A DNA stretch of 64,000 bases from Streptomyces capillispiralis (GTDB taxonomy: Bacteria; Actinomycetota; Actinomycetes; Streptomycetales; Streptomycetaceae): NCBI RefSeq assembly GCF_007829875.1, contig NZ_VIWV01000001.1, positions 3,070,501-3,134,500 on the forward strand, in the 5' to 3' direction. The stretch's first letter is position 1. Every line of letters starts with the position of its first letter. The notes below the pieces were generated by a model, which ran no database searches, was not told the origin of the DNA, and saw nothing but the letters and a program-made list of their open reading frames with translations. This document shows positions 5,043 to 57,787 of this stretch, one piece after another. Position numbers and translations under genes: made by a program.

Positions 5043-5048
5043 CGACGC

Positions 5049-5873: not shown

Positions 5874-5909
5874 CACCCGAGACCGGCGGCGGGGCGCGCT
5901 GCCCGCGTA

Positions 5910-34838: not shown

Positions 34839-34889
34839 CTGAAGTTCCCCATTCTCCAAAGCCCCGCAGCGGGTGCTCGGTTCGGCGCA

Positions 34890-34917
34890 CATTAACGCGC
34901 GTAGACACTCCTGGGAA
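34890..34917 (-). promoter_or_regulatory. Operator variant (site F) and promoter of bmpA copy 2
   Basis: Same design as site E: TTCCCA (34917-34912), 16-nt spacer, TTAATG (34895-34890), with TCTACGCGCGTTAA overlapping the -10. The block ATTAACGCGCGTAGAC is identical upstream of both bmpA copies. Confidence 0.6.
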
Positions 34918-36676: not shown

Positions 36677-37741
36677 TCAGACCGCCGGTGCCGTCCGCAG
36701 GTGGTGGGCGTCCCGGGCCGTGTCCGTGACGTTGGACAGGAAGCCCTGGGCACGGGGGGAGGCCGTCTTGGTCAGCCAGGCCGGGTCTATGTCGCACACC
36801 GAGACGCGCACGCCGGTGCCGCTCAGGGCGAGGGGCAGGGTGTGGACGACCGTGGAGGGGAAACTGAGGACGGTGCGGCCGATCGGGCCGCGGCGGGCGA
36901 TCAGCTCCAGGGGGAGTTCCGGGCGGACGATCTCCAGGCCGGTCTCGACGGCCAGGCGGTGCAGCTTCTCGGTGCTCTCGCGGCGGTGGGCGAAGTAGCG
37001 CCGCGCGCCGTGGGTCCTCGCCAGGGAGCGGACGGCCCCGAGATAGGCGTCGGCGTCCACCACGCCGGTCTCCACCAGGGAGGTGCCCACCATGTCGGCG
37101 CCCTGGGTGACGCTCGGCGGGCCGAAGCGGTCCCGGGTCCAGGCGAAGGTGTGGGCGCTGACGGTCACCCCGGGCGGGGTGTCCGCCATGGGCATCGAGG
37201 TGAACACCTCGACGGCGCGCTTCCCTCCCGGGGTGAGCCGGCGCCGGGCGACGGCGGAGACGGGGGCGAGGACCAGGTCCCGGGGGCCGGGGCGGCCGCC
37301 CTTGCGGTGCCAGCGCACCAGGCGTTCGCCCCGGGCCAGCTGGCCGACGAACTCCATGGTCGCCGTGCCGTCGTCGACGACGACGAGGTCACGGGCCCGG
37401 GTGATGGTCAGCAGCAGCTGGACGTAGCGCGAGAAGGGGTCGCCGAGGACGATCCGGGTGGCCCGGCGCAGCAGGCGCGCCAGTCCGCCGACGGTCTGCA
37501 CCGGGGCGCCCGCCCCTCCCCGCGCCTCCTCCCAGCGGACCTCGTGGCCCTCCTCGCGGGCCAGCTCGGCCATGCGGCGCAGCTGACCGCGGGTCATCGG
37601 ATCGACCGGGGACAGCACCACGAGGGTGAGCCCCACGCCGGGCGCATGCGCGTGCGCCCACTCCAGCACGTTGAGCAGTTGTACCGGGCTCTCGACGAAG
37701 GCGAGAGTGTGGGGGCCGGGCCGGCCGGCGCGGGGGCTCAT
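36677..37741 (-). CDS. Polysialyltransferase-like glycosyltransferase
   Basis: 354 aa from ATG 37741 (MSPRAGRPGPHTLAFVESPV). The N-terminal FVESPVQLLNVLEW is typical of a GT-B family found in sialic-acid clusters. Bacterial sialyltransferase motifs can be traced: an acidic-acidic-Gly motif (VVVDDGTATMEF), RYFAHRRES where the HP motif should be (HR here), and a Ser-Thr motif (LSFPSTVVH). The HP change means activity should be tested, not assumed. It is the last gene of the minus operon, 49 bp after the NeuB gene, so it acts on the same sugar pathway. A short hairpin at 36610-36636 lies downstream. Confidence 0.72.
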   Translation of the reverse strand: MSPRAGRPGPHTLAFVESPVQLLNVLEWAHAHAPGVGLTLVVLSPVDPMTRGQLRRMAELAREEGHEVRWEEARGGAGAPVQTVGGLARLLRRATRIVLGDPFSRYVQLLLTITRARDLVVVDDGTATMEFVGQLARGERLVRWHRKGGRPGPRDLVLAPVSAVARRRLTPGGKRAVEVFTSMPMADTPPGVTVSAHTFAWTRDRFGPPSVTQGADMVGTSLVETGVVDADAYLGAVRSLARTHGARRYFAHRRESTEKLHRLAVETGLEIVRPELPLELIARRGPIGRTVLSFPSTVVHTLPLALSGTGVRVSVCDIDPAWLTKTASPRAQGFLSNVTDTARDAHHLRTAPAV

Positions 37742-37790: not shown

Positions 37791-38726
37791 TCAGACGGCC
37801 AGCGGCTCGCCGGCGGCGGTCGCGATCTCCGCCTCGGCGACGGCACCGGTGACGCGGCGCAGCTTCTTCATCGGGCCCAGCTCGGACTCGTAGACCTTCT
37901 TCACGCCGTCGCCGAGGGAGGCCTCGATGGTGCGGATGTCGCGGACCAGGCGGGTCAGGCCCTGCGGCTCGACGGAGGCGGCCTGGTCGGAGCCCCACAT
38001 GGCGCGGTCGAGGGTGATGTGGCGCTCGACGAAGACGGCGCCGAGGGCGACGGCGGCGAGGGTGGTCTGCAGGCCGGTCTCGTGGCCGGAGTAGCCGATC
38101 GGGACGTTCGGGTACTCCTGCTGGAGGGTGTTGATCACACGGAGGTTCAGCTCCTCCGCCTTCGCCGGGTAGGTGGAGGTGGCGTGGCAGAGCAGGATGT
38201 TGTCGCTGCCCAGGACCTCGACCGCGTGGCGGATCTGCTTCGGGGTGGACATGCCGGTGGAGAGGATGACGGTGCGGCCGGTGGCGCGCAGGGCGCGCAG
38301 CAGCTCGTCGTCGGTGAGGGAGGCGGAGGCGACCTTGTGGGCCGGCACGTCGAACTTCTCCAGGAAGGCGACGGCCTCGGTGTCCCACGGGGAGGCGAAC
38401 CAGTCGATGTTCTTGGACTTGCAGTACTCGTCGATCTGGCGGTACTCGTCCTCGCCGAACTCCACGCGGTGGCGGTAGTCGATGTACGTCATCCGGCCCC
38501 AGGGGGTGTCGCGCTCGATGTCCCACTGGTCGCGCGGGGTGCAGATCTCCGGGGTGCGCTTCTGGAACTTGACCGCGTCACAGCCGGCCTCGGCGGCGGC
38601 GTCGATCAGCTTGAAGGCGTTCTCGAGGTCGCCGTTGTGGTTGATGCCGATCTCGCCGGTGACGTAGACGGGGCGGCCGGGGCCGGCCTCGCGCGAACCG
38701 AGGGTGCGGATGCGGGAGTTGCTCAT
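37791..38726 (-). CDS. NeuB-type sialic/nonulosonic acid synthase
   Basis: 311 aa. TIM-barrel synthase motifs: VTGEIGINHNGD, CDAVKFQKRTPE, FASPWDTEAVAFLEK, ILSTGMSTPKQI, LCHATSTYPAKAEELNLR, GYSGHETG and VERHITLDRAMWGSDQAASVEP. It condenses phosphoenolpyruvate with a hexose or hexosamine derivative to a nonulosonic acid. It lacks the C-terminal SAF/antifreeze-like domain usually present in NeuB (about 345 aa), so part of the active-site lid is missing or supplied in trans. In Streptomyces teichulosonic-acid loci the product is thought to be Kdn. It follows the CMP-synthetase gene by 14 nt. Confidence 0.88.
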   Translation of the reverse strand: MSNSRIRTLGSREAGPGRPVYVTGEIGINHNGDLENAFKLIDAAAEAGCDAVKFQKRTPEICTPRDQWDIERDTPWGRMTYIDYRHRVEFGEDEYRQIDEYCKSKNIDWFASPWDTEAVAFLEKFDVPAHKVASASLTDDELLRALRATGRTVILSTGMSTPKQIRHAVEVLGSDNILLCHATSTYPAKAEELNLRVINTLQQEYPNVPIGYSGHETGLQTTLAAVALGAVFVERHITLDRAMWGSDQAASVEPQGLTRLVRDIRTIEASLGDGVKKVYESELGPMKKLRRVTGAVAEAEIATAAGEPLAV

Positions 38727-38740
38727 GACAGGGGGTTTCC

Positions 38741-39970
38741 TTACTTGGGGAGGGAATCGAGAGAGGGACCGAGGATCCAGCCGGCGATCTCTCGGATCGC
38801 GCCCTCACCACCGGGCAGGGTGGTGACCGCGCGTGCGGCGCCGCGTACGACGTCGTGGGCGCTCGCGACCGCCACGGGCCAGCCCACGAGGGCGAAGCAC
38901 GGGAGGTCGTTGACGTCGTTGCCGACGTAGAGCACGCGCTCCGGCGCGATGCCCTGCTCCTCGCACCACTGCTTCAGCGCGAGGTCCTTGCGGTCGATGC
39001 CGTGCAGCACGGGCAGCTTGAGCTTGCGCGCGCGGGCGGCGACGACCGGGTTCTGTTCCGTGGACAGGATCAGCAGCTTCAGGCCGCTGCGGCGCAGGGC
39101 CGCGATGCCGAGTCCGTCCCCGCGGTGCACGGAGACGAACTCCCGTCCGTCGGAGTCGATCAGCACCCGGTCGTCGGTCTGGGTGCCGTCGAAGTCGAGG
39201 ACGACCGCGTCGATGTCGTCGGCGGTCGGGAGGGCGCCGGGCCGCTCCGCGTCGAAGAGCGGGGCGAGGGCGCGGGCCCGGGCGAGGTCGTGCGGGTCGT
39301 CGACCTCCAGGACGCGGGCCGGGTCGGTGCGCACGAGTTCGGTGCGGCCGAAGAACCGGTGCCGGTGCTCGCGGAAGCCGGCCGCGTCCATCGCGTAGGC
39401 GGCGCCGGTCTCCAGGAAGTCCTGGGGGCGGTCCTGGCGGCGGGGGCGGAAGGACTTGTCGTGGTTGACGCCGTGACCGCCGTCGGCCGCGTCGTCGCCG
39501 TCGCGCCAGACGAAGCCGTGGAACGGGGCGACGGTCACCGCGGTGTCGGCGCCCTGCTCGACGACCGCGCCGGCCACCCCGTCGATGTCCTCGCGGACCA
39601 GGAAGGGGCTGGTGCACTGCACGAGCAGGACGACGTCCACGGGGGCGCCGTGCAGGGCCTCGTGGGAGTCCATGGCGTGCAGCACGGCGGCCTCGGAGGT
39701 GGCGGTGTCACCGGCGATGGCGGCGGGCCGCAGCACGACCTCGGCGCCGGCCTGCCGGGCGGCGGCCGCGATGGCCTGGTCGTCGGTGGAGACCACGACG
39801 TCGGTGATGTGGCGGGCGGCCCGGCACTCGCGCACGGCGCGCGCCACCAGGGGCACGCCGCCGACCGGGGCGAGGTTCTTCGCGGGCACGCCCTTGGAGC
39901 CGCCGCGCGCGGGGATCACGGCGAGCACCCGGCGCACCGCGGCGCCCTGGCCCGCTTGCGGGTGGGACAT
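38741..39970 (-). CDS. Fused CMP-sialate synthetase (NeuA-like) and KdsC-type HAD phosphatase
   Basis: 409 aa. Residues about 14-235 form the nucleotidyltransferase (VIPARGGSKGVPAKNLAPV, VVVSTDDQ, LLVQCTSPF, FLETGAAYAMDA), which activates the nonulosonic acid with CTP. Residues about 242-405 form a HAD phosphatase (AVVLDFDGTQTDD with the nucleophile Asp, LLILSTEQN, HGIDRKDLALKQ, YVGNDVNDLPCF). The phosphatase half probably removes the 9-phosphate from NeuB's product, so one polypeptide performs two consecutive-pathway steps. ATG 39970 has AGGAGC seven bases upstream; longer readings are not conserved-looking. Confidence 0.88.
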   Translation of the reverse strand: MSHPQAGQGAAVRRVLAVIPARGGSKGVPAKNLAPVGGVPLVARAVRECRAARHITDVVVSTDDQAIAAAARQAGAEVVLRPAAIAGDTATSEAAVLHAMDSHEALHGAPVDVVLLVQCTSPFLVREDIDGVAGAVVEQGADTAVTVAPFHGFVWRDGDDAADGGHGVNHDKSFRPRRQDRPQDFLETGAAYAMDAAGFREHRHRFFGRTELVRTDPARVLEVDDPHDLARARALAPLFDAERPGALPTADDIDAVVLDFDGTQTDDRVLIDSDGREFVSVHRGDGLGIAALRRSGLKLLILSTEQNPVVAARARKLKLPVLHGIDRKDLALKQWCEEQGIAPERVLYVGNDVNDLPCFALVGWPVAVASAHDVVRGAARAVTTLPGGEGAIREIAGWILGPSLDSLPK

Positions 39971-40002: not shown

Positions 40003-41346
40003 TCACAGCTCGCCCATCCGGCGGATCACCGGGGCCACGCGCTGCACGCCGTGCCGGTAGGCGCCGCGCGCCGCCCGGCGCACGATCTGCCGGACCGGTC
40101 CGGGCTCCTTGTCGGCGGCGGGGGCGCCGGGCAGCGGGGTGCCGTCCGGGCCCAGGTGGTGGCGGGCGAGGATGCCGGGCAGGTAGCCGGGCGCGGTGAC
40201 GGGTGTGTAGTACGGGGTCAGCGGGGGCAGTCCGCCGGGCCGGGCGAGCAGCTTGGCGATGCGTTCGCGGGCGGTGTCGAAGGCCGTGTCGTACGAGCCG
40301 TCGGCGGCGACGCCCTGCCGTGCCACCCAGTCCTCGTCGGGTTCCGGGCGGTGTCCGGCGTCGAGCTGGTCCCACGAGGCGAGGCAGCCGGAGCCGACGA
40401 AGTGGTGGTTGCCGAGGGCTTCCCGGATGCCGAGGTCGGTGAGGACCGCGGTGGGGACGCGGCGGTGCAGCGACTCCAGGGCGGCCGTGGAACTGACCGT
40501 GACCAGCAGGTCGGTGCGGTCCAGGACCTCGCCCATGTGCCCGTAGACCAGGCGGAAGTTGGGCGGCAGGTCGAGCCGCTGGGACAGCTTCTGGTAGGGC
40601 AGTTCCTCGATGTGGGTGGTGTGCTCGCCGGGCTTGGAGCGCAGCTTGAGCAGCACTTCGCGCTCGGGGTGCCGGCGGGCGTGCTGCACCAGCCGGTTCA
40701 GCAGGTACGTACGGTCCTTGCGGCTGTCCGGCACGGAGGGCTGGGCGGCGAAGACGACCGTGTAGGGGTCGTGCTCACCGGTGTAGGGGGCGCCGCCGAG
40801 GAAGGGCAGCGCCACCTCGGTGACCGAGCCGGCGTCGGCGCCCACTCCCTCGTACACGGCGCGGAAACGGTCCGCGTCCTGGCGGGAGTTGGCGAGCACC
40901 AGGTCGGCGCCGTGGCGCAGCAGCAGGCCGTCGGCGAGCTTCTCGTAGACGACACCGACGTATCCGGTGACGACGACGGGACGCCGCGGGCGGTCCTCCC
41001 AGACCCGCTTGAGGCCGTGCAGCATCGCCTGCACGCCCCCGCCGACCAGGGAGAGCACGAGGAGGTCGTAGGGCTCCTCGCGCATGGCGCGCAGGAACTC
41101 GACCGCGGTGACCTCGCGGAGCGAGTCGGCGGTGACGCCGACCTCGCCGAGCTGGCGGGCGGTGGGGGTGGCGCGGCCCCGCAGCAGGAATCCGTCCAGA
41201 CGGATGTCGGCACCGCCGGCCGTGTCGCCCGGAATTCCGGGCGCGGACGGCGCGATGCGGTTCGCGGTGAGCGCGCCCCATTTCCACCGGGTGTCGGAAT
41301 CCGCGAGGACCGCCACCCTGAGGGGCTTCGTTGCACTTGCTGGCAC
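40003..41346 (-). CDS. GT-B-like protein, first gene of the sialic-acid operon
   Basis: 447 aa, GTG start. A Rossmann-like N-terminus (RVAVLADSDTRWKWG), VVVTGYVGVVYEKLADGLLLRHGAD, and a C-terminal half with REVLLKLRSKPGEHTTH and LVTVSSTAALESLHRRVPTAVL resemble GT-B glycosyltransferases of capsule loci (the DUF6716-type proteins). No signal peptide. Its role is likely transfer or modification of the polymer. Acceptor and donor cannot be told from sequence. It is transcribed from the promoter at 41368-41396, divergent from the plus-strand glycosyltransferase operon. Confidence 0.72.
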   Translation of the reverse strand: MPASATKPLRVAVLADSDTRWKWGALTANRIAPSAPGIPGDTAGGADIRLDGFLLRGRATPTARQLGEVGVTADSLREVTAVEFLRAMREEPYDLLVLSLVGGGVQAMLHGLKRVWEDRPRRPVVVTGYVGVVYEKLADGLLLRHGADLVLANSRQDADRFRAVYEGVGADAGSVTEVALPFLGGAPYTGEHDPYTVVFAAQPSVPDSRKDRTYLLNRLVQHARRHPEREVLLKLRSKPGEHTTHIEELPYQKLSQRLDLPPNFRLVYGHMGEVLDRTDLLVTVSSTAALESLHRRVPTAVLTDLGIREALGNHHFVGSGCLASWDQLDAGHRPEPDEDWVARQGVAADGSYDTAFDTARERIAKLLARPGGLPPLTPYYTPVTAPGYLPGILARHHLGPDGTPLPGAPAADKEPGPVRQIVRRAARGAYRHGVQRVAPVIRRMGEL

Positions 41347-41396: not shown

Positions 41397-41544
41397 CGAA
41401 AAGTTAACAACAGCCCACCGAGAGCCGAACTGGCCTGCCGGGAAGCCGGAAGTACACACGGTGCACCGTACCGACACATCGAGTTCACCTCCCGTACGGG
41501 CGCCGGAAAGTTGCCGAGCCGGGCCGCCTCCTAGTGTTTTGCGG

Positions 41545-42531
41545 GTGCCGAAGCTTTCCGTGATCGTCCCGTTCTACAACGTTCAGCGATACGCGCCCGA
41601 CACCCTGAGAAGTCTCCGCGCGAACGCCCGGCCGGATTTCGAGTTCGTTCTGGTCGACGACCATTCCGAGGACGGGACGCCGGCGATTCTCGAGCGTGCG
41701 GCCGAGGACCTCGCGGACGTCGCCCAGGTGCGCCACATCCGTCATGACAGGAATGGCGGGATCGCCACCGCGCGCAACACCGGGCTGGACGCGGCGCGGG
41801 GCGAGTACCTGGCGTTCCTGGACGGGGACGACTGGCTCGCTCCCGGCTACCTGTCCGAACTGGTCGCGGCCGCCGAGCGGTTGGGCTGCGACTTCGTGCG
41901 CACCGACCATGTGCGGGTCACCGACCGCGCCCGGTCCGTGCGCCGGGTCCCGGTCGGCCTGCGCGACGAGGTGCTGAACCCGCGGGACGCCATCCTGCCC
42001 GCGGACCGGACGACCTCGGTGGACTACGTGTCCGTCTGGGCCGGCGCCTACCACCGGCGGCTGCTGGAGCGGGGGCTGCTGCACTTCACCGAGGGGCTGC
42101 ACACGGCCGAGGACCGGCCGTGGACCTGGAAACTGCACCGCGAGGCGGAGTCGTTCGCGGTGATCAACCTGCTGGGCGTGTTCTACCGCCGCGGGGTCAC
42201 CTCCTCGCTCACCCGCATCGGTGACGCCCGCCAGCTCGACTTCATCCGCGCCTTCGACCAGATCGTCGAGGAGACGGCGGCGGACCGGGACGCCGGGCGG
42301 CTGCTGCCCAAGGCGGTGCGGCAGTACTGCGCGATCATGGCGCACCACCTGGCCGAGGAGGACAAGTTCGAACCGGCCGTGGCGCGGCGGCTGCGGGCGA
42401 TGAGCGCGGCGGCGCTGCGCCGCATGCCGCAGGACGCGCTCGACGACGTACTGGGGAGCATGGACATGGAGCGTTCCGCCCGGCTGCGACGGCTGCGGCG
42501 CCGGACCGGCACCGCGAGGGAGGCCGTCTGA
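41545..42531 (+). CDS. GT2-family glycosyltransferase (cassette copy 1)
   Basis: 328 aa, GT-A fold: KLSVIVPFYNVQRYAPDTL, FVLVDDHSEDGTP, NGGIATARNTGLDAARGEYLA, and the metal-binding FLDGDDWL. Starting at GTG 41545 fits both the family N-terminus and a leaderless promoter (TAGTGT at 41532-41537, 7 nt before the start). The C-terminal half (AEDRPWTWKLHREAESF, FYRRGVTSSLTRIGDARQLDF) is shared with the paralogue at 47486. The stop shares one base with the next ATG (TGATG). Confidence 0.87.
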   Translation: MPKLSVIVPFYNVQRYAPDTLRSLRANARPDFEFVLVDDHSEDGTPAILERAAEDLADVAQVRHIRHDRNGGIATARNTGLDAARGEYLAFLDGDDWLAPGYLSELVAAAERLGCDFVRTDHVRVTDRARSVRRVPVGLRDEVLNPRDAILPADRTTSVDYVSVWAGAYHRRLLERGLLHFTEGLHTAEDRPWTWKLHREAESFAVINLLGVFYRRGVTSSLTRIGDARQLDFIRAFDQIVEETAADRDAGRLLPKAVRQYCAIMAHHLAEEDKFEPAVARRLRAMSAAALRRMPQDALDDVLGSMDMERSARLRRLRRRTGTAREAV

Positions 42532-43862
42532 TGTCCCGCACGACCCAGATCTTCTGCGTCTCGACCCTGTACGGCCTGGCCACGCTGGCGGCGGCGATCG
42601 AGTCCGACTGCTTCGCGGAGGCGGAGCGGCGGGTGCTGCTGGTCTGCGCCGACTCCGCGGTCCCGGAGACCGCGCCGGCGCTGGACGGGATGCCGGGCTT
42701 CGCGCCGCTGCGCGACCACTTCGACGACGTGCTCTCCTGGAACGAGGCGATCACACCCTTCCACCCGGCGGCCTGGACGCCGCGCGCCGAGGACGTCCCG
42801 CTCCTGGAGCGGCATCTGCGGCGGCTGTGGGGGCTCGGCGACGACCGTGTGGAGCTGGTCCTGGAGTCCCTCCCGGTTCCCCCCGCCCTCGCGGTGGCGC
42901 AGGTGTTCACCGGGGCGCCGGTCCATGTGTACGCCGACGGGCTGATGACGTACGGCCCCACGCGCGGCAGGCTCGACCCGCTGGTGGGCACGCGCGTGCG
43001 GCAGGTGCTGCACCTGGACCTGGTGCCGGGCCTCACGCCGATGCTGCTGCGCGAGTTCGGCGTGCCGGCCCGCGTGGTGCCGACGGACGCCTTCCTGAAG
43101 GCGGTCGGTGAGATCGCGGCGGCCACCGACGGGGTGCCCGAGGTGCCGGACGGCTCGGCGCTGCTGATCGGCCAGAGCCTGTCCGCGCTCGGCGTCCTCT
43201 CGGCCGGGGAGGAGGAGGACCTGCATCTGCGGATGCTGCGGGGCGCGGTCGGACGCGGCCACCGCACCCTCTTCTTCAAGCCGCACCCGGCCGCGCCGGC
43301 CCCGTACAGCCGTGCGCTGGAGACCGAGGCGGACCGGCTCGGGGCGTCCCTGACCGTCCTGGACTCCGCCGTCCTCGCCGAGGCGCTGTTCGAGAAGTCC
43401 CCGCCCGCGCTGGTCGTCGGCTGCTTCTCGACCGCGCTGTTCACGGCGTCCGCGCTGTACGGCCTGCCGGTCGCCCGCACCGGCACCGGGCAGCTCCTGG
43501 AGCGGCTCACGCCCTATCAGAACGGCGACCGGGTGCCGGCCGTCCTGGCCGACGCGCTGCTGCCGGACCTGGAGTCCGGCCGGGGTGCGGCGGCCCTTCC
43601 CGCGGACGAGCTGGACGCCCTGGTCACCACGCTGGGCTTCACCATGCAGCCGCAGGTCCACCCGGCGCTGCGGCCGGTCGCCGAGCGGTACCTCGCCCGG
43701 CACTTCGGGCCGCGCACCCGGCACTGGTTCAAGCGCAAGCGGCTCACCTCGCTGGGTCTGCCCGGCGGCATCCCGCGGCGGCTGGCGTTCCTGCCCCGCA
43801 ACGCCGCCGCGCGCCGGATGGTGCGGCGGGCGCGGGCGCTGAAGAAGGCCGTGCGGCGCTGA
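42531..43862 (+). CDS. Alpha-2,8-polysialyltransferase-family glycosyltransferase (cassette copy 1)
   Basis: 443 aa, POLYST family, GT-B fold. The N-terminal QIFCVSTLYGLATLAAAIES is diagnostic. The sialyltransferase motifs are VHVYADGLMTYGP (acidic-Gly), LFFKPHPAAPAP (HP, CMP binding) and VVGCFSTALFTAS (Ser-Thr). The C-terminus is basic and could contact the membrane. It probably transfers a nonulosonic acid from its CMP form onto the growing polymer. It is paired with the preceding GT2 gene. Confidence 0.85.
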   Translation: MSRTTQIFCVSTLYGLATLAAAIESDCFAEAERRVLLVCADSAVPETAPALDGMPGFAPLRDHFDDVLSWNEAITPFHPAAWTPRAEDVPLLERHLRRLWGLGDDRVELVLESLPVPPALAVAQVFTGAPVHVYADGLMTYGPTRGRLDPLVGTRVRQVLHLDLVPGLTPMLLREFGVPARVVPTDAFLKAVGEIAAATDGVPEVPDGSALLIGQSLSALGVLSAGEEEDLHLRMLRGAVGRGHRTLFFKPHPAAPAPYSRALETEADRLGASLTVLDSAVLAEALFEKSPPALVVGCFSTALFTASALYGLPVARTGTGQLLERLTPYQNGDRVPAVLADALLPDLESGRGAAALPADELDALVTTLGFTMQPQVHPALRPVAERYLARHFGPRTRHWFKRKRLTSLGLPGGIPRRLAFLPRNAAARRMVRRARALKKAVRR

Positions 43863-43970
43863 CGGGGCCCCTCGTGGGAGGCGTACGCGCGGCCGGGTGT
43901 TGGAGGCCGACTGTTCACCCCGTGTCCATCCGGAAGCCACCGGCGGACCGTCGTACTGGGGCACATTCGG

Positions 43971-43984
43971 CCTCCGATCGGAGG
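43971..43984 (+). promoter_or_regulatory. Perfect palindrome over the ribosome-binding site of the GT29-like gene
   Basis: CCTCCGATCGGAGG, a 14-bp perfect palindrome whose right arm GGAGG is the SD candidate, 11 nt before ATG 43996. It could mask the SD in mRNA or bind a regulator. Confidence 0.4.
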
Positions 43985-43995
43985 ACGGTGGAAGC

Positions 43996-45252
43996 ATGAC
44001 GAACCCCCTGGCGGGATTGTTCACGGCACGCCAGAAGGAGGCCGCCAGGCGGGACCTGTACGCCCGCGGCCTGCGCCTGTGCGGTGACTACCTGGCGGCG
44101 CGGGACGATCGGCCCACCGTCCGGGACACCCGGCTCACCCAGGCGATCGGCGTGTTCGCCGGCTCCCTCGACACCCCGTCCGCCGACCCCTTCGACGCGC
44201 TGCTCCAGGTCGGTGTGCGCGCGCTGGAGGCCGGCGGGGACGACGGGCTCGCCCTGGCCCTCGGGGTCGCCGAGACGGCGACCGAGGTCCGGCAGCGGTC
44301 CCGGGGGGCGTGGCGGCTGCGCGGCCGCGCGCTGGACGGGCTCGGCCGCGGCGACGAGGCGCTGGAGTGCTACGAGCGCCATCTGACGCTGCTGGGGGAC
44401 GGCGAGGCGGCCGAGGACGTCACCCGCAGGATCGACACGCTGCGGCGCCGGCGGGCCTGCCTGGAGGAGGCGGCCACGCTCTTCCCCGGGCCCGGGGCGG
44501 CGCTGCGCGACCTGGCCGGGAAGCCGGCCCCGGTCGCGGCGCCGGAGTTCGCCGCCCACGCGCGGGCGCGGGTGGCCGAGCACGGCCCGGGCGACCCGGC
44601 CGTACGGCGCCTGCTGGAGCTGTACGGCACCTACCGGCGGCTCGTCGAGCGGTCCGGCATGTCCGACCCGCTGCTCGGCGGGACCACGCCGGTCGGTGTC
44701 GGCGGGCTGCGCGGCCTGGTGGCGGGGCGGACGGTGTGCCTGGTGTCGAACGCCGCCGAGGTCGCCGGGAGCGGCCTGGGCGCCGAGATCGACGCCTACG
44801 ACCTGGTGGTGCGCTGCGACTCGTTCCGCACCCACGCCGGGGGCGCCGGTGAGCGCACCGGCCTGCACGCCGTCTCCCTGCGCGGCGACGCCCCCTGGGA
44901 CGGCCCCGCCTGGACGCGGCCGGCGGGCATCCGGCTGGTGTTCGGCGACCCGGCGGCGGCCTGGCGGCGCGCCGTGCGGCAGCGGCTGGCGGCCGGGGCG
45001 CAGGAGCACGTCGGTGACGCCTCGCTGCGCCGGCCCCTGAGCGACCCGGCGCTGCTGGGCGAGGGAGGCTGGGGCTCGGGGACCACCACCGCCTTCACCG
45101 TCCTCAGGCTCCTGGACTTCCTGGACGTCAGCCCCCGCCTGGACCTCATCGGCTTCGACAAGCCCGGCCGGCTGCGGCCGAAGGAGGCCGAGTGGGTCAT
45201 GGACCGCGCGACGCACGTCGACGACAGCAAGATGAGGATCGCCCTGCGATGA
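43996..45252 (+). CDS. GT29-like sialyltransferase with N-terminal TPR-like region
   Basis: 418 aa. The N-terminal 200 or so residues are helical with a TPR-like unit (RLRGRALDGLGRGDEALECY). The C-terminal part carries what looks like sialylmotif L of the eukaryote-type GT29 family (VCLVSNAAEVAGSGLGAEID followed by AYDLVVRCDSF). It also has a sialylmotif S-like segment (GSGTTTAFTVLRLLDFL followed by LDLIGFD). GT29 proteins are uncommon in bacteria. I infer transfer of a CMP-activated nonulosonic acid to an acceptor different from those of the POLYST proteins. The stop overlaps the next ATG (ATGA). Confidence 0.75.
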   Translation: MTNPLAGLFTARQKEAARRDLYARGLRLCGDYLAARDDRPTVRDTRLTQAIGVFAGSLDTPSADPFDALLQVGVRALEAGGDDGLALALGVAETATEVRQRSRGAWRLRGRALDGLGRGDEALECYERHLTLLGDGEAAEDVTRRIDTLRRRRACLEEAATLFPGPGAALRDLAGKPAPVAAPEFAAHARARVAEHGPGDPAVRRLLELYGTYRRLVERSGMSDPLLGGTTPVGVGGLRGLVAGRTVCLVSNAAEVAGSGLGAEIDAYDLVVRCDSFRTHAGGAGERTGLHAVSLRGDAPWDGPAWTRPAGIRLVFGDPAAAWRRAVRQRLAAGAQEHVGDASLRRPLSDPALLGEGGWGSGTTTAFTVLRLLDFLDVSPRLDLIGFDKPGRLRPKEAEWVMDRATHVDDSKMRIALR

Positions 45253-47441
45253 CCCACTCCTCCGCGGACGACCGGAGCACCGTCACCGGCAGACGCCGGA
45301 TCGCCTTCGCCGTCCACACCGACACCGCCGGCCTGCCCGGCCTGGCCACGCTGCTGCGCAGTCTGGCGCTCACCAACCCGGGTGTGTGCGAGGACTTCGT
45401 GGTGCTGCACCCCGGGCTGCCGGACTCCGCGTTCGACGCGCTGCGCCGGCTGCACCCGCGGCTGGTCGCGCGCCGGGCGGACGGCCGGGGCGAGGTCTTC
45501 CGGCTGGAGGGCTACGACACCGTCGTCGCCCTCGCCCCGTCCATGGTCGTGCTGGACGGCATCGGTGAGCTGCTGCGGATGCGGCGCGGTGTGGGGGCCG
45601 TCCCGCAGCTGCTCTGGGACGGGCGGGGCGAGGAGCGGCGCGCGGTCCTGCCGGACGGCCTGCTGGTCGTCCAGCGCGCCGACGTGGACGGCGCCGTGCC
45701 GGCCGGCACGGACACGGTGCCCGCGGAGCTGCTGACACCGGTCGACGCGCGGTTCGACTTCCTCACCCGGCGGCTGTACGACGACGCGCCGGTGCCGGCG
45801 CGGGTCGCGGTGCTGCACTTCACCGGCCCGTCCGACGAGCCCGGGTACGCTCCGGCGGCCGAGGCGCGGCGCCGCTTCGAGATGAGCGACGAGGAGTTCC
45901 GGGCCGCGTACTGCGCCCTGCCCGGCGACAAGCACCCGGACCTGCTGGCGCACCTCGCGCCGCCCCTGCTGCGGGCGCGTCCCTCGCTCGACCTGGCCCG
46001 CACGGTCGCCGACGTGTACCGCAGGCAGGGCCGCTACGACGAGGCCGTCGAGGTGCTCGCCCCGGTCGTCGGGGACCGGCTGGACGCGCCGCGCTGCCAG
46101 GAGACGCTCGGCGTCTGCCTGATGGCGCTGTCGCGCTACGACGAGGCCGAGGCGCGGCTGCTGCTGGCGGCGGCGTCACCCGATGTCGCCCCGCGTGCCT
46201 TCGCCCAGCTGGCCCGTCTGGCGTGGCTGTGCGGACGGGACGCGGACGCGCACGCCTACGCCCGCGACGGCCTGGAGGCCGACCCCACCGACGCCGGGTG
46301 CCACGCCTGGTACGTCCGTACGCGCCCGGAGGAGCGGACGGAGCCGGTGGCCGCCGGGGAGCAGTTGGCGCACGTGGCGCTGTTCGCCGAGGGGCAGGAG
46401 AACGCGGGCGACAAGGTGCTGCCCGAGGCCGTGCGCCTGTGCTTCGGCAGCGACACCGGCCCGCGCCACTGGTACCAGCAGCCGGTGCACCGGCTGGTGG
46501 ACGAGGCGGCGCTGGAGGAACTGAACGCCCGGCGCGGGGTGGTGGTGGGCGGCGGCGGACTGTTCCTGCCGGACACCTCCCCCAACGGCAACAGCCACTG
46601 GCAGTGGAACGTCCCGGACGGCGTGCTGTCCCGGCTGACCGCGCCGCTGGCGGTGTTCGCGGTCGGTTACAACGTGTTCGACGGGCAGCTCTACCGGCGC
46701 GGCCGGTTCGCCGAGAGCCTGCGGGTCCTCGTCGAGCGGTCGGCGTTCTTCGGGCTGCGCAACCACGGCTCGATCGAGCGGGTCCGCGAGCTGCTGCCCG
46801 CGGAGCTGCGGGACCGGGTGCGCTACCAGCCCTGTCCGACCACGGTGGCGCGGTACCTCGTGCCCGGCTGGACCGACCCGGTGGAGCGGGCCGACACCGT
46901 CCTGGTGAACTGCGCGTACGACCGCGCCGGGCTGCGCTTCGGGCACGACTACGGCCATTTCCTCGCCCAGCTGGCCCGCGCGCTGAAGGGCCTGCGGGAC
47001 AGGGCCGACGTACGGTACGCGGCCCACATGCCCGCCGACGAGAAGTTCGTGCACGACCTGCGCCGGGAGCACGGCATCGCCCTGCCCGTGGAGCAGTTGT
47101 ACGACATGACCAACGACGGGATCCGTGAGCTGTACCGCCGGGCGCGGCTGGTGATCGGGATGCGCGGGCACGCGGGGATGATCCCGTTCGGCTGCGGCAC
47201 CCCGATCCTCAGCCTGGTCTCCCACCCGAAGCTCGCCTACTTCCTGACCGACATCGGCCGCCGGGAGTGGGGGCTGTCCGTGCACGACCGGGACCTCGGC
47301 TCCCGGCTCGGGGAGCGGGCGGCGGCGATCCTCGACGACCACGCGGCCGCGGTGGCGGACGTGCACGGCGCGCAGAAGCTGCTGTGGGAGACCACCCGGT
47401 CCAACCTGGACGAACTGCGGGAGACCTTCGGCCGGGCATGA
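45249..47441 (+). CDS. Three-part protein: GT8-like, TPR, polysaccharide pyruvyltransferase
   Basis: 730 aa. Residues about 12-190 resemble a GT8-type GT-A domain (RRIAFAVHTDTAGLPGLATL), but the expected DxD strand reads VVALAPSMVVLDGI, lacking the metal-binding aspartates. Residues about 240-335 look like TPR repeats (VADVYRRQGRYDEAVEVLAP, ALSRYDEAEARLL). Residues about 345-700 are a polysaccharide pyruvyltransferase (ENAGDKVLPEAVRLCFG, VVVGGGGLFLPDTS, VIGMRGHAGMIPFGCGTPIL), which adds ketal-linked pyruvate to a sugar. The combination is unusual. Pyruvate would add negative charge to the glycopolymer. Confidence 0.8.
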   Translation: MTHSSADDRSTVTGRRRIAFAVHTDTAGLPGLATLLRSLALTNPGVCEDFVVLHPGLPDSAFDALRRLHPRLVARRADGRGEVFRLEGYDTVVALAPSMVVLDGIGELLRMRRGVGAVPQLLWDGRGEERRAVLPDGLLVVQRADVDGAVPAGTDTVPAELLTPVDARFDFLTRRLYDDAPVPARVAVLHFTGPSDEPGYAPAAEARRRFEMSDEEFRAAYCALPGDKHPDLLAHLAPPLLRARPSLDLARTVADVYRRQGRYDEAVEVLAPVVGDRLDAPRCQETLGVCLMALSRYDEAEARLLLAAASPDVAPRAFAQLARLAWLCGRDADAHAYARDGLEADPTDAGCHAWYVRTRPEERTEPVAAGEQLAHVALFAEGQENAGDKVLPEAVRLCFGSDTGPRHWYQQPVHRLVDEAALEELNARRGVVVGGGGLFLPDTSPNGNSHWQWNVPDGVLSRLTAPLAVFAVGYNVFDGQLYRRGRFAESLRVLVERSAFFGLRNHGSIERVRELLPAELRDRVRYQPCPTTVARYLVPGWTDPVERADTVLVNCAYDRAGLRFGHDYGHFLAQLARALKGLRDRADVRYAAHMPADEKFVHDLRREHGIALPVEQLYDMTNDGIRELYRRARLVIGMRGHAGMIPFGCGTPILSLVSHPKLAYFLTDIGRREWGLSVHDRDLGSRLGERAAAILDDHAAAVADVHGAQKLLWETTRSNLDELRETFGRA

Positions 47442-47485
47442 GCCATCGCACCACCGCCGCTACGAGCCCCGAAAGGGAGAACCAC

Positions 47486-48451
47486 GTGCCCAAACTGTCC
47501 GTCGTCGTGCCGATGCACAACGTGGAGGCGTTCGCCGAGAGCACCCTGCGCAGTCTCGCCGCCAACGCGCACCCCGACTTCGAGTTCCTGCTGGTCGACG
47601 ACTGCTCCACGGACGCCACGCCCTGGGTGATCGACCGCTGGGCGGAGAAGCTCCCGGGCGCGCGGGTGATCCGGCACGAGACGAACAGGGGCATCGCCCA
47701 GGCGCGCAACAGCGGCATCGACGCGGCCGAGGGCGAGTTCGTCACGTTCCTCGACGGCGACGACTGGTACGGGCCGCGCCACCTCGCCGGCATGGTGCGG
47801 GCCATGGAGGACCTGGGCTGCGACTTCGCCCGGACCGACCACGTCCAGGCCACCGGCACCGAGCGGGTGATCCGCCGGCCCCCGGCCGCCGTGCGCAACG
47901 CCGTGATGGATCCGCGCGACGGGATCACGCCCGCCGACACGGAGACGATGGTCGACTACCCGTTCGTCTGGGCGGGGATCTACCGGCGCCACCTCTTCGA
48001 CGACGGCGGCATGCGCTTCGTCACCGAACTGCGCACGGCCGAGGACCGGTTGTGGATCTGGCGGCTGCACCTGACGGCCCGGACGTACGCGTCCCTGGGC
48101 CTGCACGGGGTGTTCTACCGGCGGGGCGTGGCGACCTCGCTCACCCAGATCAAGGACGACCGCCAGCTCGACTTCATCCCCGCGTACGACGCGCTGCTGC
48201 GGGACGTGCGGGAGGACCGGGAGGCCGACCGCTTCCTCCTCAAGGCCGTGCGCACCTACTGCGCCATGATCGCCTTCCACATCGGCAAGGTGAACGAGTA
48301 CGAGCCCGCGGCGGCCCAGCGGCTGCGGCGGGAGACGCGGGCCGCGCTCCAGCGGATGCCGGAGCAGGCGCTGGAGGAGACCCTCAAGACCATCGACAGC
48401 ACTCGGAGCAGGTTGCTCAGCCGCCTGCGTGACGGGCGGAAGGCTGCCTGA
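47486..48451 (+). CDS. GT2-family glycosyltransferase (cassette copy 2)
   Basis: 321 aa. KLSVVVPMHNVEAFAESTL, FLLVDDCSTDATP and FLDGDDWYGP are the GT-A motifs. GTG 47486 has AGGGAG seven bases upstream; ATG 47438 overlapping the previous stop is an alternative. Paralogue of 41545-42531: both share FYRRGV and TSLT motifs, TAEDR and a C-terminus with RRMPQDAL- or QRMPEQAL-type helices. It precedes its POLYST partner by 3 nt. Confidence 0.87.
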   Translation: MPKLSVVVPMHNVEAFAESTLRSLAANAHPDFEFLLVDDCSTDATPWVIDRWAEKLPGARVIRHETNRGIAQARNSGIDAAEGEFVTFLDGDDWYGPRHLAGMVRAMEDLGCDFARTDHVQATGTERVIRRPPAAVRNAVMDPRDGITPADTETMVDYPFVWAGIYRRHLFDDGGMRFVTELRTAEDRLWIWRLHLTARTYASLGLHGVFYRRGVATSLTQIKDDRQLDFIPAYDALLRDVREDREADRFLLKAVRTYCAMIAFHIGKVNEYEPAAAQRLRRETRAALQRMPEQALEETLKTIDSTRSRLLSRLRDGRKAA

Positions 48452-48454
48452 TCC

Positions 48455-49810
48455 ATGCCCCACACGACCCAGATCTTCCAGGTCTCGACCCTCTACGGAG
48501 CGGCCACCCTCGCCGCGGCGCTGGACGCGGGCCTGTACGGACCGCGCGGCGGGGCCCGGCGCGTCCTGCTGGTCTCCAACAACGCGGCCGTCCCGGAGAC
48601 CGCGCTGCGCATGGACGAGATGCACGGCTACGGGCCGATAGCCGGCCGGTTCGACGCGGTGGTCAGCTGGAACGAGGCGATCAGCCCGTACCACCCCAGC
48701 ACCTGGGGCCCGCGCGGACACGACACGGTGCTGTGGCAGCGGGCGTTCCGCCTGCTGTGGGGCATCGGCGAGGACGACATGATCGAGCTCGCCGTCGAGT
48801 CGATCCAGGCCAACCCGGCCCGCGCCCTGGCGGCGATCTTCACCGAGGCCGCCGTCGACGTGTACGCCGACGGTCTGATGAGCTACGGCCCGACCCGCGA
48901 GAAGCTGCCGCTGACCATCGCGCGCCGCATCCGGCGGCTGCTCCACCTCGATCTGATCCCGGGCCTGCGGCCGCTGCTGCTGTCCGAGTACGGCGTCGAG
49001 CCGGAGATCGTCCCGGACGGGGCGTTCCGTGCCGTGCTCGACGAGATCTCCCTGGAGGCGGCGGACGACGCGCGGCTCGCGCCCGTCCTCGAGGAGGCGC
49101 CGACGGCGGTGCTGCTCGGCCAGTACCTGGCGGCGATCAACATCCTGACCGCGCAGGAGGAGGAGGACCTGCACGTCCGCATGCTCACCGGGGCCGTGCG
49201 GGCCGGGCACCGGTCCATCGTCTTCAAGCCGCATCCGACGGCGCCCGCCGGCTACTCGGCGGCGCTGAGCAAGGCGGCGGCGGACGCGGGCGTACGGCTC
49301 ACCGTGCTGGACGCGCCGCTGCTCGCCGAGACGCTGTACCACCACTGCCGTCCCGAACTCGTCGTCGGCTGTTTCTCCACGGCGATGGTGACCGCCTCCG
49401 CCTACTACGACGTGCCCGTCGCCCGGGTCGGGACCTCGCTGGTGATGGGGCGCCTGCGGCCCTACCCGAACAGCAACCGGGTGCCGCTGGCCGTGATCGA
49501 CCACCTGGTGCCCGACCTGGAGCGCGAGGAGTCCCCGGCCCTCGTCGGACCGGCGCCCGACACCCTGTCGCCGCTGGTCCGGGCGATCGGCTTCTGCATG
49601 CAGCCCAAGACGTACCCGGGTCTGCGGGAGCCGACGGCGCAGTGGCTGCGCGCCCATCTGGCCGACAGCCCCGGCTACTACTTCCCCGAGCTGCGGCTGG
49701 CCGAGCTGGGTCTGCCCGGCAGCCGCCCGCGCTCCCGCGCCCGGGTCCGGGTGGGCCGGGCCAAGCGCCGGGTGGGCCGGGTGGTCCGGCGCGGCACCCG
49801 CAGGGGCTGA
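48455..49810 (+). CDS. Alpha-2,8-polysialyltransferase-family glycosyltransferase (cassette copy 2)
   Basis: 451 aa, POLYST family: QIFQVSTLYGAATLAAALDA, VDVYADGLMSYGPTREK, IVFKPHPTAPAGY and VVGCFSTAMVTAS. Paralogue of 42531-43862 with the same order of motifs and a basic Arg-rich C-terminus. Last gene of the plus-strand operon before the hairpin at 49823-49862. Two copies suggest distinct linkages or acceptors, or chain initiation versus extension. Confidence 0.86.
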   Translation: MPHTTQIFQVSTLYGAATLAAALDAGLYGPRGGARRVLLVSNNAAVPETALRMDEMHGYGPIAGRFDAVVSWNEAISPYHPSTWGPRGHDTVLWQRAFRLLWGIGEDDMIELAVESIQANPARALAAIFTEAAVDVYADGLMSYGPTREKLPLTIARRIRRLLHLDLIPGLRPLLLSEYGVEPEIVPDGAFRAVLDEISLEAADDARLAPVLEEAPTAVLLGQYLAAINILTAQEEEDLHVRMLTGAVRAGHRSIVFKPHPTAPAGYSAALSKAAADAGVRLTVLDAPLLAETLYHHCRPELVVGCFSTAMVTASAYYDVPVARVGTSLVMGRLRPYPNSNRVPLAVIDHLVPDLEREESPALVGPAPDTLSPLVRAIGFCMQPKTYPGLREPTAQWLRAHLADSPGYYFPELRLAELGLPGSRPRSRARVRVGRAKRRVGRVVRRGTRRG

Positions 49811-49942: not shown

Positions 49943-51028
49943 GTGCCGAACGACATCGCCGTACGCCTGCCGCAGCAGCAGGGCAGCGCCCCCTCCGGGC
50001 AGACCGCCGCACCGCGGGAACACCGCTTCGACATCGACCTGATGCGGCTGATCTGCTCCGCGACCATCATGCTGGGGCACGTGGGCGCCCAGTTCATCCG
50101 CTCCACCGGCAACGACCCGGCGAACGGCGCGGGTTCGTACTGGGCGGGACACCTGGCCGAGGCGGTCAACCCGTTCGCCGTCCCCCTGTACTTCGCGATC
50201 GCGGGCTGGGCCGTACTGGTCGGCGCGCCCCCGCGGGACAGCGCCCGGATGTGGCAGCGCATCGTCCGCAACATCGTGCCGCTCTTCGTGTGGACGGCGG
50301 TCTACCTGGTCTGGGCCTGGCTGCGGGACCGCAACGACCGGCCCATGACGGAGCTGGCGGCGGACTCCGTGTTCGGCTCCGTGCAGCCGGCCTACCACCT
50401 GTGGTTCATGTACGCCTACATCCCGATCATCGCGCTGCTCGCCTTCGCGATGCTGATCAAGGCGGGCAAGCGGCCCTGGGGGCTGGGGGCGGCCCTGCTG
50501 GGCATCGCGGTCCTGCCGAGCGTCATGACCACGGCCACCGAGGTCACGGGACGCGAACTGCCGCACGTCGCCTGGGGTTTCGGCACCTACTCGCTGGTGT
50601 ACGCGGTCGGCGGCGCGCTGCTGTTCGCCCTGCCGGCCGGGACCCTGCGGTGGCGGTGGCCGCTGTACGTGGCTCTGCCGCTCACCATGGCCGGGGCCCT
50701 CTGGTACAACACGCGGATCCACTACGTGATGCCGAACGCGCACCTGTTCGTGGCCGCGATGAGCATCTGCGTGCTGCTGCTGGTCTCGCGGGTCCGCGTT
50801 CCCGAGAAGTGGCGGCCGTCGCTGCGCACGCTGGCCAACGCCGCGCTCGGCGCCTACATGGTGCACGTGCTGTTCGTCGAGGAGATCGTCACCCGTTTCG
50901 TGTCGCCGGACCTGAGCGCCCCGGCGGCCGGGCTGCTGCTGGCCGGCCTGGTGATCACGGTCATGACGCTGTCGTTCGCCACCAGTCTGCTGTGGGGGAA
51001 GCTCAACCTGCGGCGGCTGCTCGGCTGA
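49943..51028 (+). CDS. Acyltransferase 3-family membrane protein
   Basis: 361 aa, about ten membrane helices. The first carries MRLICSATIMLGHVGAQFIR with the conserved His of the family. FAIAGWAVLVG and the arginine of RIVRNIVPLFVW follow, and HLWFMYAYIPIIALLAFAM is in the middle. Such proteins O-acetylate (or otherwise acylate) surface sugars using acyl-CoA from the cytoplasm. GTG 49943 begins a polar 40-residue N-terminus. Its position beside the cluster suggests it decorates the same polymer. It has its own promoter region after the operon terminator. Confidence 0.85.
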   Translation: MPNDIAVRLPQQQGSAPSGQTAAPREHRFDIDLMRLICSATIMLGHVGAQFIRSTGNDPANGAGSYWAGHLAEAVNPFAVPLYFAIAGWAVLVGAPPRDSARMWQRIVRNIVPLFVWTAVYLVWAWLRDRNDRPMTELAADSVFGSVQPAYHLWFMYAYIPIIALLAFAMLIKAGKRPWGLGAALLGIAVLPSVMTTATEVTGRELPHVAWGFGTYSLVYAVGGALLFALPAGTLRWRWPLYVALPLTMAGALWYNTRIHYVMPNAHLFVAAMSICVLLLVSRVRVPEKWRPSLRTLANAALGAYMVHVLFVEEIVTRFVSPDLSAPAAGLLLAGLVITVMTLSFATSLLWGKLNLRRLLG

Positions 51029-51233: not shown

Positions 51234-52160
51234 ATGAACACCCGCTCCCTGCTCACCAGTTCGGCATCACGGCGGCTTCTGCGACCGGTCGCCGACCTCA
51301 TCGACCAGCGCATCGACCGGCGTCTGCGTTCGGCGGCCGCGGCGGACGCGGCGGGCAGAGAGAGGCTGCGGGAGACCGCCGAGCTGGTGGAGCGCCAGCA
51401 GCTCACCCTGGATCTGCTGCTCGGCTCCTCCGGGCGCGGTCTGTCCCGGATCGTCAGCCCCGGCCCGCTGAAGCGGCTGCAGTCGGAGGTGGCGGAGCTG
51501 GCCGGGGACCGTGACGCCGCCGTGCGCAACGTGGCGACCGCCTACCGGCTGCTGGTCGGGCTGGAGTCGCTGGGGGTCGGCCGGATCGCGGGCGGCACCA
51601 TGAACATCTGCGGCAAGCTCGGCACCATCCCCCTGCTGGACCCGCCGAACGACGAGATCCTGGAGATCGGCACGCTGTACGGCATGTTCTCCACGGGGCT
51701 GATCCGGATGATGGAGCGGGACGGCCGCAGCCCGAACGTGACGATCGTCGACCCGTTCGCCGGTGTGCAGCTCCAGCCCGGCACCCCGCGGCGCTCCGAC
51801 CCCACGGGCACCCCGGTCGACGAGCACGCGGTGCGCACCAACCTCGCCCTGGCCGGTCCGGCGGGCGTGGCCGCCCGCGTCCAGCGGGGCTTCTCCGAGG
51901 ACCCCGCGACCCGTGCGGCCGTCTCGGACCGCCGCTACGGCGTGATCGTCGTCGACGGCGACCACTCGGCCGAGGGGGTCGCCAAGGACCTGGAGTGGGC
52001 GGAGGAGATCGCCGCCCCGGGCGGGATCGTCGTCCTGGACGACTTCGGCGACCCCAAGTGGCCGGGCATCAAGGAGGCGCTGGACAAGCACCTCACGGGT
52101 GACACCCGCTTCACCTACCTCGGCAAGGCGGCCCTCTCGGCGTTCCTGCGGGCTTCCTGA
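51234..52160 (+). CDS. Class I SAM-dependent methyltransferase
   Basis: 308 aa. The first 90 residues are helical and charged. The SAM-binding core has DEILEIGTLYGMFSTGLI (motif I), VTIVDPFAGV, IVVDGDHSAEGVAKDLEWA and PGGIVVLDDFGDP, which resembles the CmcI/Methyltransf_24 type. DGDH and DDFGDP hold metal-binding-type acids. It may O-methylate the glycopolymer sugar (methylated Kdn-type residues are known in actinomycete wall polymers); that is an inference from position. It is convergent with the LysE gene with a 19-bp gap. Confidence 0.8.
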   Translation: MNTRSLLTSSASRRLLRPVADLIDQRIDRRLRSAAAADAAGRERLRETAELVERQQLTLDLLLGSSGRGLSRIVSPGPLKRLQSEVAELAGDRDAAVRNVATAYRLLVGLESLGVGRIAGGTMNICGKLGTIPLLDPPNDEILEIGTLYGMFSTGLIRMMERDGRSPNVTIVDPFAGVQLQPGTPRRSDPTGTPVDEHAVRTNLALAGPAGVAARVQRGFSEDPATRAAVSDRRYGVIVVDGDHSAEGVAKDLEWAEEIAAPGGIVVLDDFGDPKWPGIKEALDKHLTGDTRFTYLGKAALSAFLRAS

Positions 52161-57041: not shown

Positions 57042-57787
57042 CACATGTCCTTCTGCGTCCGCGCTCGCATCCGCGTCACCCTCGCGGAGGTCACCGTACG
57101 ACGGCGTGGTTCTCTCTGGGCCGGAAGTGCGTCGAGCACCCCGGCGGATTCCGGATGGGCCTCCGGATCGTCACCGAGCAGTTCGGCCAGGCGCTTCAGA
57201 CCCCGGTGCGCGGCCGTCCGTACCGCGCCCGGACGCTTGCCCAGCGTCTCGGCGGCGGTCTTCGCGTCGAGTCCCACCACCACGCGGAGCACGACGGCCT
57301 CCGCCTGGTCCTGCGGCAGCCGGGCTATGAGCGAGAACGCGCCGTCGGTGGCCAGCGCCTCGATGGCCTCGCCGGCGGTGTCGGACTCGGCGGCCCGGCC
57401 GGTCAACTCGGTCTCGTCGCCGCCGATCGCGGGGCGGCGCCCGCGCATGCGGATGTGGTCCAGCGCCCGGTTGCGCGCTATCCGTGCGGCCCAGCCGCGG
57501 AACCGGTCCGCGTCGCCGGTGAACCGCTCCAGGTCACGGGCTATCTGCAGCCAGGCCTCGGACGTCACGTCCTCGGCGTCGGGCTCGCCGACCAGTGTTC
57601 TCACGTATCCCAGCAGCCGCGGGTGCACGGCTCGGTACACAGTCCGGAACGCGGTCTCGTCCCCGTCCTGTGCCGCACTCACCGCAGCGGTCAGCTCCGC
57701 GTCGTCCCCCAGCACCGCGCGCGCCCTTCTGCGCCTCAGCCGGCGCCGCTCTCGCGGACCGGGTTGCTCGCCGTCGTGGTTGCTCAA
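57041..57787 (-). CDS. ECF-type sigma factor (pair 1)
   Basis: 248 aa. Region 2: FRTVYRAVHPRLLGYVRTLVG through FRGWAARIARNRALDHIR, with EDVTSEAWLQIARDL. Region 4: LIARLPQDQAEAVVLRVVVG through KRPGAVRTAAHRGLKRLAELL. The longest frame starts at TTG 57787; GTG at about 57715 just before region 2 is the alternative. Clear paralogue of the sigma factor at 59331. Immediately followed, with overlap, by its presumed membrane-bound regulator. Confidence 0.86.
   Translation of the reverse strand: MSNHDGEQPGPRERRRLRRRRARAVLGDDAELTAAVSAAQDGDETAFRTVYRAVHPRLLGYVRTLVGEPDAEDVTSEAWLQIARDLERFTGDADRFRGWAARIARNRALDHIRMRGRRPAIGGDETELTGRAAESDTAGEAIEALATDGAFSLIARLPQDQAEAVVLRVVVGLDAKTAAETLGKRPGAVRTAAHRGLKRLAELLGDDPEAHPESAGVLDALPAQREPRRRTVTSARVTRMRARTQKDM

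Follow-up and report, generated by a model that had tools for sequence, protein, structure and literature searches.

Turnover of glycosyltransferase pairs in a predicted Kdn wall-polymer locus of Streptomyces

Why would a locus that appears to make a cell-wall polymer carry the same pair of glycosyltransferase genes twice? The question is raised by a 64,000-nucleotide stretch (hereafter the window) of the 8.43-Mb genome of Streptomyces capillispiralis (RefSeq assembly GCF_007829875.1, contig NZ_VIWV01000001.1, positions 3,070,501 to 3,134,500). Two cassettes, each made of a GT2-family gene followed by a gene of the polysialyltransferase family PF07388, enclose there a GT29-like gene and a gene for a three-part GT8/TPR/pyruvyltransferase protein. 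A preliminary description of this DNA, made from the letters alone, had proposed a modular assembly line for a branched, pyruvylated nonulosonic-acid polymer that matched no described system. We consider it probable that the locus makes a wall polymer containing the nonulosonic acid Kdn, and that cassette 2 has been displacing older transferase pairs from it.

Results

The two cassettes comprise four genes:

41545..42531, plus strand: cassette 1 GT2, putative core hexosyltransferase (PF00535; in the core clade of the tree; DGDDW and AEDR intact)
42531..43862, plus strand: cassette 1 polysialyltransferase-family glycosyltransferase, core (PF07388, E 2e-31; ADG and KPHP intact)
47486..48451, plus strand: cassette 2 GT2 (PF00535; DGDDW and AEDR intact; in a clade apart from the core GT2)
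48455..49810, plus strand: cassette 2 polysialyltransferase-family glycosyltransferase (PF07388, E 1e-27; ADG and KPHP intact; separate clade)

As the preliminary description had stated, the cassettes have the same gene order and are paralogous over their full length, with 54.4% identity between the GT2 proteins (318 aa), 51.0% between the PF07388 proteins (431 aa) and 68.5% at the DNA level over 2,089 bp. The genome holds exactly two PF07388 genes, both in these cassettes, and each product matches the family profile and carries the acid of the D/E-D/E-G motif as well as the HP motif. The phylogeny that had been suggested as a check gave concordant GT2 and polysialyltransferase trees: both set a clade of core copies apart from a clade of second copies and leave one or two divergent sequences near the root. 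Since the identity is 51–54% and the separate clades are shared by distant species, a recent local tandem duplication is ruled out; cassette 2 is an old paralogous lineage.

Two samples were used to follow the cassettes through the genus: 80 named Streptomyces loci, anchored on the DUF6716 gene and biased toward near relatives because they are the best matches to the DUF6716 of the window, and an even sample of 296 Streptomyces genomes, PF07388 being present in 283 of the latter. Every complete locus among the 80 has the same core, that is, the gene at 36677, NeuB, the NeuA-HAD fusion, DUF6716 and the two genes of cassette 1, and a second cassette is variably present. Cassette 1 is part of a genus-wide core.

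Motif loss was observed in this core. Two residues have been shown to be catalytic in the polysialyltransferase of M. haemolytica (PMC5517516): E153, the base, which belongs to the D/E-D/E-G motif, and H291, the histidine of the HP motif, by which the leaving group is stabilised. The residues lost from the core polysialyltransferase are these same ones. The base or the HP motif is missing at 17 of the 31 loci with cassette 2, at one of the 18 with a reverse-type cassette and at 0 of 80 scored without a second cassette. The altered motif reads AGG, TAG, VGG or VDD, or else HP is lost. One further loss was seen on the short contig L043, whose sister locus L058 carries cassette 2. The losses include loci of an independent test set fetched later, made of genomes with at least two PF07388 genes, after which all loci were scored together. 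They correspond to about seven independent events, as counted on the single-gene DUF6716 tree. The DxD of the core GT2 has been lost from five loci, namely L043 and four that carry cassette 2. Cassette 2 itself is motif-intact in every copy checked. Motif loss is read here as a predicted loss of activity.

The core polysialyltransferase evolves fast. Its median omega (Nei-Gojobori dN/dS, which for such GC-rich genes has comparative value only, here and below) is 0.52 for the window-like set and 0.43 for the other, whereas NeuB has about 0.2. Relatives are either about 60% or 70–78% identical to it, as if two allele classes were exchanged.

Downstream of the core polysialyltransferase the 80 loci vary. 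In some of them the accessory module is the same as in the window: GT29-like gene, three-part protein, cassette 2 and acyltransferase. In others (L010, L012, L040, L056 and L063) the pair formed by the GT29-like and three-part genes has been lost and cassette 2 kept, fragments of the pair remaining in L010 and L040. Still others lack cassette 2 and carry the pair in a distant form, encoded on the opposite strand, and at L053 this opposite-type pair lies on the other side of the core. The second cassette is reversed at four loci of the 80, and at many loci acyl- and/or methyltransferase genes stand alone behind the core polysialyltransferase. Most of L143–L154 show a second arrangement, in which the whole module, with cassette 2 first, runs GT2, polysialyltransferase, GT29-like, three-part, acyltransferase and faces the core. 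Carriers of the window-type module are scattered in distant parts of the DUF6716 core tree, among carriers of the other type. Because the window-type pyruvyltransferase domain is monophyletic while its carriers have distant core backgrounds and two arrangements, the module moves relative to the core.

Other contents and positions were noted on the way. At L016 the accessory slot behind the core cassette (4565–7279) is taken by a protein of 904 aa that contains a group-1 glycosyltransferase domain, and L187 and L188 have a tandem copy of the core-type cassette, both copies intact. Eight genomes carry a cassette-2-type pair away from the core locus (L193, L195, L197, L199, L201, L203, L205 and L207), about 1.1–1.2 Mb from it where one contig holds both. 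No other homologue of the genes of the window locus was found within several kb of these eight distant sites.

The genes between the two cassettes are the following:

43996..45252, plus strand: TPR and GT29-like protein, predicted to be inactive as a sialyltransferase (HxxxxE (VS) segment and RFN of motif L lost)
45249..47441, plus strand: three-part protein with a decayed GT8 domain, TPR and an intact CsaB-type pyruvyltransferase (RGHAG; PF04230, E 1e-10; GT8 unmatched)

The GT29-like assignment survives as a weak match to sialylmotif L alone (17.5 bits), below the Pfam cut-off of 23 bits, and through intact relatives that pass this cut-off. Indeed, the GT29-like partner in the opposite-strand relatives (e.g. 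L022) scores above it and has VRFNS and an invariant HxxxxE. In the window protein the HxxxxE segment is deleted and RFN has become RCD. Its structure model is confident for the TPR part alone, and both Foldseek and a second alignment gave mainly TPR-type/OGT matches. Outside the genus, no GT29-like protein turned up in the 148 genomes sampled from the order; a match was found in one of five genera.

For the three-part protein the TPR and pyruvyltransferase named in the preliminary description were detected, but its GT8 domain matched no profile and is a decayed remnant, recognisable as GT8 solely by alignment to relatives: DTD has become APS and about 24 aa are deleted. The clade of the window shares the replacement of DTD, this deletion and the absence of the HxxxxE segment from the GT29-like partner. 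Opposite-strand relatives have a clear GT8 (Pfam E 1e-19 in L022; PDB relative 5gvv), and the intact ones carry LDTDMVV, NSGLLVI and HFTGRHKPW. When 25 aligned proteins were compared with Pfam, GT8 was recognised in 15, which is also how many members have intact motifs. The pyruvyltransferase part scores 42.4 against 25.3 bits with PF04230 and has the RxH motif. RGHAG is found in decayed and intact forms alike, three sequences reading RGHAT or RGHAS. The motif alignment overturned the candidate roles of the window GT8 and GT29 domains as active enzymes; in the three-part protein, only the pyruvyltransferase domain looks active.

Among the 296 genomes, 74 have the three-part protein. The 47 genomes with an intact form include 46 that have one PF07388 gene or none, and the 26 with a decayed form include 25 that have at least two; in the remaining genome (G285) the protein belongs to neither class. 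The decayed forms are one clade, and the tree calls for just one GT8/GT29 decay. The association of decay with cassette 2 therefore counts as one event, and its Fisher value should not be taken as independent evidence. In the decayed clade the GT29 part has an omega of 0.42, the GT8 remnant 0.49 and the pyruvyltransferase 0.22, compared with 0.32, 0.31 and 0.29 in the intact clade. The decayed domains are therefore under a weaker constraint than the pyruvyltransferase, yet still a purifying one (omega below 1). Separately, two loci of small-genome Streptomyces, L139 and L140 (G113 and G135), have an intact pair and zero PF07388 genes, which indicates that the pair can exist without a polysialyltransferase-family cassette.

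What polymer could the locus make? The cassettes and the genes between them are surrounded by these features:

36677..37741, minus strand: gene of the conserved core, for a putative GT-B glycosyltransferase in the polysialyltransferase/GT52 superfamily (VDDGT motif invariant; predicted fold)
37791..38726, minus strand: NeuB-family nonulosonic acid synthase, probably Kdn-9-P synthase (PF03102, E 5e-83; in nearly every full-length locus of the 80)
38741..39970, minus strand: CMP-nonulosonate synthetase fused to a KdsC/Kdn-9-P-phosphatase-like HAD domain (PF02348, E 5e-23; PseF, KdsC and KDN-9-phosphatase models sub-threshold)
40003..41346, minus strand: DUF6716 putative glycosyltransferase, conserved core (PF20471, E 3e-106; one copy in its own genome)
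41460..41493, no strand: PHO-box-like element in the divergent promoter, with three CAC units at 11-nt spacing, GGTGCACCGTA CCGACACATCG AGTTCACCTCC
49943..51028, plus strand: acyltransferase family 3, probable polymer O-acetylation (PF01757, E 9e-26; most of the core-only loci tested have a member of this family in their accessory slot)
51234..52160, plus strand: methyltransferase, possible polymer O-methylation (PF13578, E 3e-15; also in other loci)

The four minus-strand genes thus diverge from a plus-strand series running from the GT2 of cassette 1 to the methyltransferase, and NeuB and the CMP-nonulosonate synthetase (PF03102, PF02348) adjoin PF20471, PF00535 and PF07388, the gene content looked for in a teichulosonic-acid locus. 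In S. coelicolor, SCO4873–4882 include neuAB, are PhoP-dependent and have been called the teichulosonic-acid cluster (PMC13011467, PMC2267785, PMC2824715). Because gene order, gene content and the literature agree with SCO4873–4882, we assign the window locus, as a prediction from its genes, to the Streptomyces teichulosonic-acid (Kdn cell-wall glycopolymer) type, the variable part of a known phosphate-starvation cluster. A described system does therefore match, contrary to what had first been noted. Three CAC units at 11-nt spacing occur in 69 of 81 related intergenic regions, versus 0.28 expected in shuffles, and GTTCACC in the divergent promoter of 68 of the 80 loci. The window pattern has the form of a Streptomyces PHO box, and control by PhoP is predicted.

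The gene at 36677–37741 had been counted as a third polysialyltransferase-like gene. The count holds for the two PF07388 genes, but a third PF07388 gene finds no support in profile or BLAST searches: this gene gave no match in Pfam and NCBIfam, its product has no BLAST similarity to the two PF07388 proteins, and profile-profile comparison, made with shallow alignments, gave no signal. Its AF2 model has modest confidence (pLDDT 62), and the best Foldseek matches were the M. haemolytica polysialyltransferase structures 5wcn (E 2.7e-5) and 5wc6 and the Neisseria sialyltransferase 2yk4. VDDGT is kept in 37 of 37 aligned relatives. We predict a protein that is polysialyltransferase-like at the fold level only, the structure models used here being of low to moderate confidence.

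Two further gene pairs of the window were noted. On the minus strand, genes for two paralogous extracytoplasmic function (ECF)-type sigma factors, 55% identical over 208 aa, lie at 57041–57787 and 59331–60068; after each of them, in the same orientation, comes a gene for a low-complexity, disordered-looking protein (55854–57044 and 58117–59154). Tandem genes for basic membrane protein (BMP)-family lipoproteins, at 32475–33524 and about 33789–34898 on the minus strand (75% identity over 348 aa), adjoin nucleoside-type ABC transporter genes.

Discussion

The scheme that we favour would start with the formation of CMP-Kdn by NeuB and the NeuA-phosphatase fusion. Each GT2 and its polysialyltransferase-family partner would act as a two-enzyme unit, the GT2 adding a hexose, probably galactose, and the partner adding Kdn, so that their alternating action would yield a hexose-Kdn repeat; donors, sugar identities and linkages are presumed in this scheme. 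Reviewed examples of GT2 enzymes that carry DxDD are Gal or Glc transferases (PMC4202792). Acyl-, methyl- and pyruvyltransferases would then decorate the polymer. On the simplest reading, GT8 + GT29 and GT2 + polysialyltransferase are both pairs of a hexosyl- and a nonulosonyltransferase. An incoming cassette 2 could take over synthesis of the repeat unit and alter the polymer structure, after which the resident pair would decay. The window strain may represent an intermediate stage, with GT8/GT29 decayed and both cassettes intact. Of the activities of the three-part protein, that of the pyruvyltransferase domain would be the one to survive; the dead glycosyltransferase and TPR parts may be retained under weaker constraint as docking or acceptor-binding modules. 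Of the proposed modular assembly line, the nonulosonic-acid polymer locus, its movable transferase units and a pyruvyltransferase are retained, but the GT29-like and GT8 parts lack catalytic motifs. The comparative data show turnover of cassettes and decay of resident enzymes instead of a stable additive use, and we read cassette turnover as a serial displacement of hexosyl/Kdn-transferase pairs. The wider proposal, that Streptomyces switch their Kdn wall-polymer structure by swapping such pairs while redundant residents decay with their frames still open, is put forward tentatively, as somewhat short of an even chance.

Several points weigh against displacement. The core polysialyltransferase is intact at 14 of the 31 cassette-2 loci, window included, the core GT2 has lost its DxD in just five loci, and the core is intact in the eight genomes whose cassette 2 lies far from it, where the two could be used together. 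GT8/GT29 decay being a single event, its link with cassette 2 is unreplicated. The orthology to the SCO genes comes from order, content and literature, and the donors and linkages of the transferases are what we infer. The intact cores, in the window strain with all motifs in both cassettes, would suit an additive assembly line in which both cassettes and the GT29, GT8 and pyruvyl genes jointly make one branched or two-repeat pyruvylated Kdn polymer, and simultaneous use of the two motif-intact cassettes in that strain may occur. As a general account we find it unlikely: the GT29-like and GT8 domains lack catalytic motifs, the repeated motif loss of the core polysialyltransferase is confined to loci that have a second cassette next to the core, and the GT29-like/three-part pair was repeatedly lost with cassette 2 retained.

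The cassettes might otherwise serve two separate polymers for different conditions (vegetative or spore wall, phosphate-poor or phosphate-rich), decay following where one condition is not met. A PHO-box-like element precedes the core cassette, and cassette 2, which sometimes lies in another genome region or on the opposite strand, may be controlled differently; in the window, though, it is directly downstream on the same strand after a gap of 44 bp, suggesting one transcript, and we give this explanation little credence. Slightly less probable still is catalysis by other residues in the motif-less GT29-like and GT8 domains, or their service as acceptor-binding subunits of the pyruvyltransferase. 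Purifying selection on both and many invariant positions would agree with it, but the losses of DxD, NSGLL, HFxGRHKPW and HxxxxE, together with the deletions, remove donor-binding and base residues from both folds, and several lineages have lost the pair altogether.

The main wall glycopolymer of Streptomyces is reported to be teichulosonic acid, whose transferases are unassigned in the accessible literature. The repeated natural inactivation of one enzyme beside another names transferases that may be mutually substitutable and provides a direct genetic test. If displacement is true, exchange of enzyme pairs would bring about a serotype-like switching of the wall glycan, possibly driven by phages or glycan-targeting toxins. 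The locus also joins the TUA locus, the umbrella-toxin receptor described recently, as a second hypervariable wall-glycan locus, this one predicted to be Kdn-based.

That TUA-WTA utr locus of S. griseus (Zhao et al. 2025, PMC13274773) is likewise hypervariable and has accessory glycosyltransferases and acyltransferases. However, it makes another polymer with UtrA–J families and ManNAc3NAcA/GalNAc, NeuB and polysialyltransferase being unnamed in PMC13274773, and we rejected it as the identity of the window locus since genes and sugars differ. GT29 sialyltransferases, bacterial ones included, share motif L and an S-like motif with the window protein, and the intact Streptomyces relatives share HxxxxE too, whereas the window protein lacks HxxxxE and RFN and is fused to TPR; bacterial GT29 are reported from Proteobacteria, Actinobacteria being unmentioned (PMC5811610). 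Both PF07388 copies resemble the GT38/PF07388 enzymes MhPST and NmB-polyST in profile match, D/E-D/E-G acid and HP motif, but have A in place of D/E as the first motif residue. They also differ in being paired with a GT2, so that Kdn is probably added in alternation with a hexose and no homopolymer of Kdn or Neu5Ac is built.

The closest likeness is to SCO4873–SCO4882 (Ostash et al. 2014; PhoP regulon), with NeuA/NeuB, a glycosyltransferase and hypothetical genes in a PhoP-dependent cluster, as the window has its PHO-box-like element. Counted outward from NeuB (SCO4881), these genes seem to fit the window order one to one. Decay and turnover of transferases are not described in the accessible literature on the S. 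coelicolor locus. The Streptomyces polymer consists of Kdn and galactose and often bears GlcNAc or methyl groups, and the Kdn teichulosonic acid of Promicromonospora contains 7,9-pyruvylated Kdn (PMC6801904).

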